A stretch of 54,163 nucleotides of DNA from Bryobacteraceae bacterium (GTDB lineage: Bacteria; Acidobacteriota; Terriglobia; Bryobacterales; Bryobacteraceae), in the NCBI GenBank assembly GCA_019748195.1, contig JAIEPW010000078.1:1-54163 (forward strand), read 5' to 3'. The notes under the pieces are model-generated. The model was not told the DNA's origin. It worked only from the letters and a program-made list of their open reading frames with translations, and searched no databases. Made by a program: the position numbers and the translations under genes. Below, one piece after another: positions 7,195 to 10,151 of the stretch. Position 1 is the first letter of the stretch. Every line of letters begins with the position of its first letter.

Positions 7195-8115
7195 ATGCTG
7201 ATCCAGACGCCGAAGCCCTGGGACATCCCCGAGCGCGACCTGACTCCCGAAAGCGCCTACCGGAATCGCCGCGAGATCCTCGCCGCCGCCGGCTTCTTCG
7301 CCATGCAAGGCCTGCTCCGCGCCGCCGGCGAGACCAGGCCCAAGCGCAACCCCAGGTACACGCTCGACCGCCCCGTCACCGACGAGGCCGCCGCCACCGG
7401 TTTCAACAACTACTACGAGTTCGACGCCGAACAGAAACAGGCCGTCCAGTTCCTGACCGGCAAGTTCATCACCTCACCGTGGAAAATTCAGGTCTCCGGA
7501 CTCGTCAACAAGCCCCAGACCTTCGACCTCGATCAGCTCCTGAAGAAAATGCCCATCGAGGAGCGGACCTACCGCTTCCGCTGTGTCGAAGCCTGGTCCA
7601 TGGCCGTGCCCTGGTCCGGATTCCAGTTTTCCGAGCTGATCAAGCTGGTGGAGCCCAAGCCCGAAGCCAGGTTTGTCCGCTTCACCACCGTCTACCGCCC
7701 CGATCAGATGCCCGGCATCAAGAAGTACAGTTGGTATCCGTTCCCCTACTACGAGGCCCTGCGGATGGAGGAAGCCATGAACGAGCTTTGCTTCGTCGCC
7801 ACCGGGCTCTACGGCAAGCCGCTGCCGAAGCAGAACGGAGCTCCGTTCCGCATGGTGGTCCCATGGAAGTACGGATACAAGGGCGCGAAATCAATCGAGA
7901 AAATCGAGTTCGTCGCCAAGCAGCCGGAGACCTTCTGGAACAAGCTGCAGCCCGCCGAGTATGGCTTCTATTCGAATGTGAATCCGAAGAAGCCCCACCC
8001 CCGCTGGTCGCAGGCTACCGAGAAAGCGATCCCCAGCATGGAACGCCGCCCGACGCTGCTCTACAACGGCTACGGCGATTTCGTGTCGAAGCTCTACACC
8101 GGCGACGAGTTCTGA
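7195..8115 (+). CDS. msrP: Protein-methionine-sulfoxide reductase catalytic subunit MsrP
   Basis: Periplasmic molybdopterin enzyme that reduces methionine sulfoxide in oxidised envelope proteins. The 306-residue product starts after GAAGGAG four bases before the ATG. The N-terminus has the family pattern [12 protein letters not shown] followed by a twin-arginine-like signal [11 protein letters not shown], so Tat export is expected. Cys130 in FRCVEAWSM is the molybdenum ligand, and the C-terminus [16 protein letters not shown] matches the family. The usual partner msrQ (haem membrane subunit) is absent next to it and was not seen elsewhere in the window. Its last codons lie inside a direct repeat that recurs 474 bp downstream. 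Confidence 0.94.
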
Positions 8116-8136
8116 ACCGGCTCGTTCGTCAGGAAC
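8093..8136. repeat. Direct repeat, left copy, flanking hicBA
   Basis: Starts TCTACACCGGCGACGAGTTC and ends TTCGTCAGGAAC. It covers the last seven codons and stop of msrP, and the hicA stop codon also falls inside it. The right copy at 8567-8613 differs by a 3-base indel and two substitutions near the left edge; the shared run from CCGGCGAC to GGCTCGT (27 bases) is identical. Confidence 0.92.
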
Positions 8137-8362
8137 GTAGATTCCAGTCCGGCAAGCCGATCCCACTGCCCTCGATAATGGCTCTCATCGTGCCCAGCGG
8201 TAGGATCCGGCCGCGGTGGTATGGCACGATCACTTGTTTTCCGGTGAACAAGTTTCGCCACTTTTGGTGGCTTCCTTTCGAACCCACCTGTGCGAAGCCA
8301 TGACGGCGGAGTATAGCTGCAACCTGCTCTGCAGTGAGGCGGGGCGTTCCGCGGTCACCCAA
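8129..8362 (-). CDS. hicA: HicA-family mRNA interferase toxin
   Basis: A 77-residue toxin of the HicA (YcfA) family, a double-stranded-RNA-binding-like fold that cleaves translated mRNAs. The family core is visible: LTAEQVAAILRRHGFAQVGSK, then GSHQKWRN carrying the catalytic His, then VIVPYHRGRILPLGTMRAII. It overlaps the end of hicB by 8 bases, so the two are translationally coupled with the antitoxin first. Its C-terminal codons and stop come from the left direct repeat. The protein appears intact. Confidence 0.9.
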   Translation of the reverse strand: MGDRGTPRLTAEQVAAILRRHGFAQVGSKGSHQKWRNLFTGKQVIVPYHRGRILPLGTMRAIIEGSGIGLPDWNLRS

Positions 8363-8558
8363 CCGTTACCTCGACCAACTTCGCGGATGGCGGCAGTTCA
8401 ATTTCAGCGGGCGAAAGGTAGAGCCGAATCGCCTCTTCTATGCCAAGACGAGCTTCATCCTCCGTCTCGCCTGCAGAAGCGCACCCTGGAAGCTCAGGAC
8501 AAACTGCGGAATAGCTGTCGGTGTCTGGGTCGTACTCTAAAACCACCCGGAACTTCAT
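8355..8558 (-). CDS. hicB: HicB-family antitoxin, short form
   Basis: A 67-residue HicB: opening MKFRVVLEYDPDTDSYSAVCPELPGCASAGET and DEARLGIEEAIRLYL are diagnostic of the partial RNase-H-like HicB fold that blocks HicA. The C-terminal helix-turn-helix or ribbon-helix-helix domain present in many HicB proteins is missing, so DNA binding and self-repression are doubtful. The ATG lies 9 bases after the stop codon of the upstream membrane-protein gene on the same strand, leaving no room for a separate promoter; co-transcription is likely. Confidence 0.9.
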   Translation of the reverse strand: MKFRVVLEYDPDTDSYSAVCPELPGCASAGETEDEARLGIEEAIRLYLSPAEIELPPSAKLVEVTVG

Positions 8559-8566
8559 CTTTTTAG

Positions 8567-8613
8567 TCTAACCCGGCGACGAGTTCTGAACCGGCTCGTC
8601 CTTCGTCAGGAAC
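8567..8613. repeat. Direct repeat, right copy, flanking hicBA
   Basis: Right copy of the repeat at 8093-8136. Here it encodes, on the minus strand, the last residues and stop ([11 protein letters not shown]) of the membrane protein. The same DNA in the left copy encodes the end of msrP on the plus strand, so the pre-insertion locus probably had the two genes overlapping tail to tail. Confidence 0.92.
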
Positions 8614-9800
8614 TGCCAGAAATCGCGGACCCCCGCGCCCCACCGGATGTCGCGCACGCGGGCGACCCCGAAGAACTCGCGCAAGGCTTCGTCCCCGGGC
8701 CCGTAGCGCGGCGCCAGCCGGAACAGCGTGCGATGCCTGCCCTCCGGTTGCGCTTCGATCAGATACGCGTGCACCAACCCCCGCCCGACTTCGTAGTCCG
8801 CCTTCGGCAGCGTCATCCTCGATTCCCGCAGCAGGAAAAACCGGCGATAACGGAACTCGATCCCGTCCGCGCCCCGTTTCAACTGCCCGTAGGTCCGCTT
8901 GGGGAGCCCGTGAATCCGCCGTTCGGTGAACGCGCGAATCGAACCCGCCGCTCGCGGAGTTTCCCGCTCGCCCGAAAGCAGCTTCAGGATGTCCCACGAC
9001 ACCACGGTTCCAAAAACCATCAGCCGGTACGCCCATCCCGCCAGCAGCAGCGCGATCACGATCACGATCAGGGAGATGACCAGCGACACGTTCGGGCTGA
9101 TCGCCGTGATCGCCGCCAGCGCCGCGAACGCGCCGATGCGCATCAGCTTCAAAATCAGGTCCAGGAACGGGAACGGGCTTAGCAGCACCAGCACATCCAG
9201 GGCCTGGCACAGCATCCACACCACAAACGTGCTGACCGCGCCCGCGGCCACCAGAGCGATCGCCAGCATGGAATCGCTCCAGCCCGTGGGCGCGCTCACC
9301 GCCGGCGCTTGAGCCGCGTGGACCACCGGCATCCAGCTCGCGAACAACTCGCCGATCCGCTGCTTGCCGAAGATCTGCGCCACCTGATGGAACACCACCG
9401 GAAAGGCGACCATCAACATCGCGGCCTTGTTCACGAACAGAACCTCCAGCGCGTCAATGGGCTTGGTGACGAACGGGAACATCGCCCCGATGGTGTCCTT
9501 CAGGAAGATCAGCAGCAGGATGATCGAGACCGGAATCCAGAAGATCGGGAGGGCGTAGAACGGAAGCGTCGCGCGCTGCGCCTCCGGAGTCTGCCACCAC
9601 TCCCAGATGCCCAGGGCGCACACCCCCACCAGAGGCGAGATCGCCGTGGAGGTGACCGTTCCCACCGCGCTCGCGATCTGCTCGCCCCGGTTCAGCGTAT
9701 GCGCGGTGGCCGGGTCCGGCGTTGTGGGCATCTGCGCGATCAGAAGTCCCGCCGCGCACAGAGCGATCACGATGAGAAACAAAACAAGCTGAATCCGCAC
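8568..9800 (-). CDS. Multi-pass membrane protein of unknown function
   Basis: A 410-residue protein with an N-terminal signal-anchor-like helix (RIQLVLFLIVIALCAAGLL) and roughly six further hydrophobic segments up to about residue 270, including LPIFWIPVSIILLLIFLKD and VSLVISLIVIVIALLLAG. The last 130 residues are soluble and basic. No family was recognised. The GTG at 9800 is preferred because CGGAGG sits six bases upstream; a GTG at 9815 would place that site inside the gene. hicBA follows 9 bases downstream. The C-terminal end was apparently regenerated by the flanking repeat. Confidence 0.75.
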   Translation of the reverse strand: MRIQLVLFLIVIALCAAGLLIAQMPTTPDPATAHTLNRGEQIASAVGTVTSTAISPLVGVCALGIWEWWQTPEAQRATLPFYALPIFWIPVSIILLLIFLKDTIGAMFPFVTKPIDALEVLFVNKAAMLMVAFPVVFHQVAQIFGKQRIGELFASWMPVVHAAQAPAVSAPTGWSDSMLAIALVAAGAVSTFVVWMLCQALDVLVLLSPFPFLDLILKLMRIGAFAALAAITAISPNVSLVISLIVIVIALLLAGWAYRLMVFGTVVSWDILKLLSGERETPRAAGSIRAFTERRIHGLPKRTYGQLKRGADGIEFRYRRFFLLRESRMTLPKADYEVGRGLVHAYLIEAQPEGRHRTLFRLAPRYGPGDEALREFFGVARVRDIRWGAGVRDFWQFLTKDEPVQNSSPG

Positions 9801-9845
9801 CTGTAACCTCCGCACCCGCAGGATAACAGTACGTGGCGACGGTGT

Positions 9846-10151
9846 TCAGCCGGAAGTGTCAAACCGCGCCTTCCATTCGTTTATCGGACGCAGGCTATGG
9901 TTCTCACGTAGTGCGATGGATATCGCCGCCAGTTCGCCCGCCTCCAATTCGTTTCGCTGGATCTCAACCGCCATTTCGGTGACGGCCTGAGCCCGACGCA
10001 CCTCAATCCATTCCGGGCGAGCCTGAATCCAGGCGGCCACCGCAGTCGGCGTCCCTGGAGCGCTCAACTCCCGCAAGACCTCCTCCGGGATCACAACCCG
10101 CCTGTACAGCCGCCGCGGCAGTCGCGAGCGGTTCCTTGCCGTGTTGGCCAA
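9846..10151 (-). pseudogene. Remnant of a PIN-domain (DUF3368-like) toxin
   Basis: A 101-residue frame resembling the middle of PIN-domain VapC-like or DUF3368 proteins: LPRRLYRRVVIPEEVLREL, then AVAAWIQARPEWIEV and LEAGELAAISIALRENHSL. The N-terminal strand with the first catalytic Asp is missing, and the C-terminus (RPINEWKARF) diverges where the second acidic pair would be. No matching antitoxin gene is adjacent. Both ends look eroded, so a non-functional relic is the best reading; a real small protein of another role is possible. Confidence 0.55.

Follow-up and report, generated by a model that had tools for sequence, protein, structure and literature searches.

A hicBA gene pair in the genome of a Bryobacteraceae bacterium lies between two direct copies of a 44/47-bp sequence that encodes the ends of both neighbouring genes. 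We read it, with a probability of roughly three in four, as a minimal addiction cassette that was added where msrP and a membrane-protein gene overlapped convergently, by additive recombination anchored in a gene end, with ~44–47 bp duplicated and both genes left whole. The alignment establishes the duplication at the junction, and we strongly infer that hicBA is the inserted part. The window, meaning the whole stretch of DNA analysed (54,163 nucleotides), is one whole contig of a 5.8-Mb draft genome (154 contigs). It has long been asked how chromosomal toxin-antitoxin modules come to their sites when no mobile element accompanies them. The scar of a duplicated neighbour edge is a readable footprint of insertion, absent from the core and regulator loci examined (0/77), and it makes the route testable; in this way a mechanism described for restriction-modification genes is extended to another class of addiction module. 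The features of the junction are listed in Table 1.

Table 1 Features at the hicBA junction, with positions in the window
Feature	Position	Strand	Support
msrP, protein-methionine-sulfoxide reductase catalytic subunit	7195-8115	+	NCBIfam NF003767 MsrP, 412.4 bits; Pfam PF00174, 113.9 bits; C-termini of 29 relatives
Left direct-repeat copy, 44 bp: msrP end and orphan copy of membrane-gene end	8093-8136		
hicA, predicted toxin gene, 77 aa, TTG start, stop codon inside left copy	8129-8362	-	PF07927, 50.6 bits
Unique insert between the copies, 430 bp, 57.2% G+C	8137-8566	-	
hicB, predicted antitoxin gene, 67 aa	8355-8558	-	PF15919, 36.2 bits
Right direct-repeat copy, 47 bp: working membrane-gene end and orphan copy of msrP end	8567-8613		
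Membrane protein gene, 415 aa, same strand as hicBA, directly upstream of hicB	8568-9815	-	

An earlier note on this DNA, made from the sequence alone, had described a 44/47-bp direct repeat around hicBA, and alignment bears this out. The two copies are identical at 42 of 44 aligned bases and differ further by one 3-bp gap, and when the 750-bp flanks are aligned locally the score is 67, whereas 500 shuffles by blocks of three bases average 22 and never exceed 32. The placement of the gene ends given there also holds: the last codons and stop of msrP lie inside the left copy and those of the membrane gene inside the right, and the left copy supplies the stop codon of hicA (TGA). Likewise, the membrane frame would end in SSPV in the left copy and does end in SSPG in the right. 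The right copy still encodes the GDEF terminus of msrP and its stop, on the strand opposite to the membrane gene. The locus shows the layout of insertion with long target duplication, in which a gene unit is enclosed by long direct copies of its target.

Other origins for such a repeat were considered at this point. Insertion of an IS element or transposon was rejected, given that the insert holds no transposase, as the earlier note had said, and that the duplication of 44/47 bp is not a short fixed one. Nor does a Pfam scan of 20 further ORFs, besides hicA, hicB, msrP and the membrane gene, reveal a recombinase, integrase or transposase (from a list of 42; all 20 lie within 405-30597). The copies might also be a dispersed element of the REP or MITE type, or the product of a tandem duplication followed by loss, with hicBA between them only incidentally. 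Repeats of this kind do occur at some HicA loci (L046, with a dispersed or multi-copy repeat, and genome G461, with a ~115-bp repeat in dozens of copies), but here both copies consist of two neighbouring gene ends, and we regard this origin as very improbable. A dispersed repeat was rejected on a further ground: the 611-bp region, searched against its own genome at E 0.001, matches only its own place.

The hicBA genes are a predicted type II toxin-antitoxin pair. Both domain matches exceed the curated cut-off of 27 bits, with the adjacent HicB-type antitoxin matching over residues 4-50; HicA has no NCBIfam match at E 0.001. As in other HicBA type II systems, HicA carries the G-S-H motif that is typical of the family, a partial HicB domain is present, and the genes overlap with the antitoxin first. 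Two features depart from the usual arrangement: hicA no longer has a stop codon of its own and terminates inside the repeat, and the short HicB aligns to positions 2-47 of the 123-position model. The insert begins 8 bp ahead of the hicB start codon and ends inside the second-last sense codon of hicA, and its G+C content compares with 61.6% for msrP and 65.2% for the membrane gene. The six closest HicA relatives, 68-82% identical, belong to metagenome-derived Acidobacteriota genomes, among them a Paludibaculum and a Bryobacteraceae record, and DNA similarity to them extends little beyond the two ORFs. Among seven close hicA relatives (these six and one more), the match starts with TTG in six; five have their own stop one or two residues past a conserved Trp, and two are frame-broken. 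At this locus the frame instead continues into the repeat, which provides the TGA, and hence the joint on the hicA side appears to have cut the natural end of the toxin. In the 80 hicA relatives kept (of 126), neither msrP nor the membrane gene occurs in the flanks fetched, which reach up to 2.5 kb, and a plasmid collection searched at E 1e-5 returned a single HicA relative (51.5%), with no evident plasmid source.

Relatives of the two neighbours indicate which parts of the repeat are old. In 29 related msrP loci (46-69% identical), the protein ends in YxGxEF or YxGxEY before the stop in 20 (for example LYKGDEF and LYTGDEF), in a near variant in three, and differently in six, one of them frame-broken. 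Given this conservation, the left copy holds the ancestral msrP end, of which the GDEF-coding stretch in the right copy is a duplicate. Neither Pfam nor NCBIfam has a family that matches the membrane gene at E 0.001, 'membrane' being the label of the earlier reader. A single relative (47% identical) was found in 1 of 100 other genomes of the same family, in another genus; it aligns up to residue 407 of 415, so that part of the membrane-gene stretch of the repeat belongs to that gene too. No msrP lies within the 1.5 kb fetched on each side of this relative, the membrane gene is absent from all fetched flanks of the 29 msrP loci, and a search of genome contigs with the membrane protein gave no confirmed match. 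Taken together, the conserved msrP end and the membrane-gene alignment make it most likely that the site before insertion was a tail-to-tail overlap of the two genes, which would then have been duplicated around hicBA. The earlier proposal of an insertion with long target duplication thus stands as the best reading, on the strength of the conserved msrP end and of recurrence at other HicA loci, while the comparison with possible empty sites drew on 60 related genomes, none of the same genus.

That recurrence comes from a search which the earlier note had suggested, for other hicBA copies flanked by duplications. If a locus is taken as enclosed when local alignment of its 750-bp flanks gives a direct repeat around the toxin gene that scores 44 or more, a similar layout recurs: about one in five HicA loci examined (29/146, the prompting hicBA locus included) have enclosing repeats of some kind, 13/69 in Acidobacteriota and 16/77 among relatives of this HicA from all bacteria. 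Loci with flanks below 250 bp (7 of 153 HicA and 1 of 30 ParE) were left out. Control loci were never enclosed (MarR 0/30, msrP 0/28, ribA 0/19; together 0/77), and other toxin families were so in 3 of 59 cases (ParE 2/29, PIN 1/30). Mismatched pairs of left and right flanks reached the threshold in 0/414 and 3/462 HicA combinations (together 3/876) and in no control combination; the wide HicA set spans other phyla and has the mismatched pairs alone (3/462) as its control. Fisher's test gives 3e-5 for Acidobacteriota HicA against MarR, msrP and ribA, a value that is indicative only, the loci being related or from the same genomes. Against ParE and PIN (13/69 versus 3/59) it gives 0.03, again only indicative for non-independent loci, and the HicA excess over these toxin families is modest to weak. 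An earlier version based on blastn found 13/73 for HicA, 2/30 for ParE, 0/27 for msrP, 0/19 for ribA and 1/300 for random positions of the own genome, with 17/80 in the wide HicA set at a looser cut. The hicAB locus of E. coli K-12 has no flanking repeat detectable with 7-base words.

By type, 11 of the 29 repeats duplicate the edge of a gene or tRNA and two are integron-like; the remaining 16 are dispersed, palindromic, self-duplicated or unassigned. The 11 gene-edge assignments are by-eye readings of sequences and ORFs, with neighbours checked by Pfam/NCBIfam at L034, L035, L139, L156, L251, L277 and L307, partially at L295 and L302, and by ARAGORN at L047; L284 was left out of this check. 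These cases come from Acidobacteriota, Cyanobacteria, Chloroflexi, Verrucomicrobia and Planctomycetota records, and their repeats differ in sequence from case to case.

Gene ends are duplicated at several of them. At L035, a second hicBA-like locus of this genome, the enclosing repeat is a 62/66-bp copy of a part of the 3' region of ribA: the 62-bp piece lies after hicA, hicB has an in-frame TAG stop, and 7 of the 8 substitutions relative to ribA fall at third codon positions. Duplicated at L139 is the 3' terminus of an S8 peptidase gene, at L295 the end of a PEP-CTERM gene and what follows, and at L302 the end of an antitoxin-like gene that lies upstream of parE. In Argonema antarcticum (L307), an N6 DNA methylase gene closes with ATGA, on which hicB begins, and past the cassette 36 bp of the methylase end recur, again with ATGA, followed by the next gene (DUF433), so that hicB and the DUF433 gene both start on ATGA. 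Gene starts are duplicated elsewhere: an ABC transporter gene at L251, a small gene at L284, a xylose-isomerase-like gene (xylA) at L156 in G461, and, in a Verrucomicrobiales MAG (L277), the opening ~31 codons of the cas4-cas1 fusion gene that lies just downstream of hicA. Duplication of a gene edge is not exclusive to HicA. One ParE control (L175, G174) is enclosed by a 289-bp, 98% identical copy of the 3' end of a DUF1501 gene, at 1095-1383 and 2114-2402, and each copy leads to a different stop codon.

Two side observations concern L156. Directly before the hicAB insertion lies an xisH-xisI pair (PF08814, PF08869) that is itself inside a 60-bp direct repeat (528-587 and 1377-1436, 98% identical), a second two-gene cassette with the same type of scar. 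Between hicB and the xylA start, at ~1963-2077, is the ~115-bp sequence with dozens of copies in G461, at ~77-86% identity.

The survey also bears on two classes of site-specific recombination. The 3' part of a tRNA gene is a classic integrase target, att sites at the 3' ends of genes are known, and at L047 it is the 3' part of tRNA-Leu that is duplicated; two sister genomes have a single tRNA-Leu with no hicBA behind it, and their downstream sequence fails to align up to the junction. The repeats around the present hicBA could accordingly be attL and attR of an integrase-type island that lost everything else. An att-like pair is indeed present, but there is no integrase in the 20 ORFs within 405-30597 and the insert is trimmed to two ORFs. 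Moreover, other cases duplicate gene starts (xylA, cas4-cas1 and the ABC gene), and the repeats of gene-edge cases are different sequences. We consider such a remnant unlikely. Far less probable still, to the point of being negligible, is an integron-type gene cassette with attC repeats. The core boxes of attC are GTTRRRY and RYYYAAC, and attC-like boxes are carried by the repeats of the two integron-like loci, L136 (one box) and L275 (both boxes), but the present repeat codes for conserved gene ends and is found at one locus only. An integron attC at this locus was also rejected directly: neither copy contains a GTTRRRY or RYYYAAC core.

The main rival to anchored additive recombination is the capture of hicBA at a staggered break, in which nicks ~45 bp apart on opposite strands would be followed by ligation of a hicBA fragment, for example through end joining, and fill-in would duplicate the target. 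We hold this to be possible, if not the probable course. It needs no carrier sequence in the insert, the near-identical copies at the msrP junction fit a duplication derived from resident sequence, and this genome has a Ku gene. Ku occurs in 7 of the 30 genomes tested. Yet among the tested Acidobacteriota genomes that have enclosing repeats, 3 of 11 carry Ku (G000, G300 and G506) and 8 do not (G126, G152, G163, G256, G330, G385, G461 and G510), and among the four with gene-edge repeats it occurs in G000 and G300 and not in G163 or G461. Ku-dependent end joining is therefore unsupported as the general route. Random staggers should moreover include short repeats, yet few HicA loci score between background and ~44.

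Differences between the copies point both ways. Synonymous changes dominate at L035 (6 of 8), L139 (2/2), L277 (5/5) and L307 (2/2), which is unexpected from a decaying duplicate; the copies at these four loci look like two alleles that evolved as working genes before they met, and this favours anchored addition. At L156 (1 of 4), L251 (2 of 9, noncoding part included) and L302 (4 of 11), the differences look like random decay and fit capture at a staggered break; the ParE control L175 has 4 of 6. The frames of L277, L302 and L175 were picked from three as gene-like, L295 and L284 were left out of the count, and the grouping into synonymous and decaying loci was chosen post hoc, which weakens the comparison. 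At the msrP junction itself the copies, which differ by 2 bases and the 3-bp gap, are too alike to tell a donor-borne edge from a target-derived one.

In the anchored additive recombination that we favour, a single short piece of DNA bearing hicBA and the membrane-gene end would have come from this genome or a close relative of it and recombined additively. One side would be anchored by homology in the gene end and the other would be an illegitimate joint in the last hicA codons, by which hicA would lose its own stop and come to use the TGA of the repeat. One-sided homologous recombination would yield the same layout, as would a small circle that enters by single crossover. Placed behind the membrane gene on the same strand, hicBA may now be read together with it. 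Recombination between the copies could excise the pair, but cells that lost the antitoxin would then suffer, so addiction could keep a direct repeat that is otherwise unstable. Because the right copy still encodes GDEF and its stop, the donor, if there was one, must have carried the same msrP junction, and simple duplication of resident sequence is at least as economical here.

Insertion with long target duplication has a precedent in restriction-modification genes, for which it was reportedly described by Nobusato et al. in 2000 and Furuta et al. in 2010. The relevant parts of several reports (PMC3874152, section 7; PMC1643837; PMC3031569; PMC4978471) describe restriction-modification units that insert with long, variable target duplications on the order of 100 bp. 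The present locus resembles the cases outlined there in being a small addiction-type unit with a long target duplication and no known mobile carrier (PMC3874152, PMC1643837). It differs in being a type II toxin-antitoxin pair of ~430 bp with a duplication of 44/47 bp and no empty-site strain; the case set out in PMC1643837 is from Helicobacter pylori, whereas the gene-edge hicBA cases come from the records named above. A toxin-antitoxin review that cites the restriction-modification work does not, where it does so, claim the mechanism for toxin-antitoxin genes (PMC2654758). A ParDE-like module in Microcystis is described as 'fenced' by two 152-bp direct repeats (PMC7935541). It too is a toxin-antitoxin pair between direct repeats, and the stem 'transpos' is absent from the main text of that paper, but its repeats lie outside genes, contain inverted repeats and are not described there as duplicated gene ends. 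Our searches of the literature on toxin-antitoxin genes with target duplication or direct repeats turned up no account of hicBA between duplicated gene edges.

For the route itself, the closest parallel is a selection for one-sided recombination in E. coli, in which 56 of 60 clones gave the PCR product diagnostic of a duplicated lacZ end; the 14 duplications sequenced span 109-950 bp and are ascribed, in the results given, to a single crossover by a partly deleted circle (PMC3240628). That route shares with ours one homologous anchor in a gene end, the addition of foreign DNA and the duplication of part of the gene end, and differs in its laboratory constructs, selected markers and duplications of 109-950 bp. 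Homology-facilitated illegitimate recombination, or crossover by a deleted circle, has also been invoked for toxin-immunity arrays (PMC5361080).

The earlier note had left room for an unrecognised mobile carrier, for which restriction-modification genes provide a named precedent; four loci fit a donor-borne edge better than a plain target-site duplication, and three do not. A more general proposition, speculative and in our view rather doubtful, is that hicBA and similar two-gene addiction cassettes are self-standing mobile units without a recombinase. They would move as short pieces, possibly circles, together with the edge of their last neighbour gene, enter by additive recombination at that edge, and be kept by addiction despite the excisable repeat.

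A last observation concerns the small ORF at 9846-10151 on the minus strand, just upstream of the membrane gene. It has no Pfam match and is hit by the PADLOC candidate defence model PDC-S70 at 46.6 bits, and it may be another defence- or toxin-like gene beside the neighbour of the cassette.
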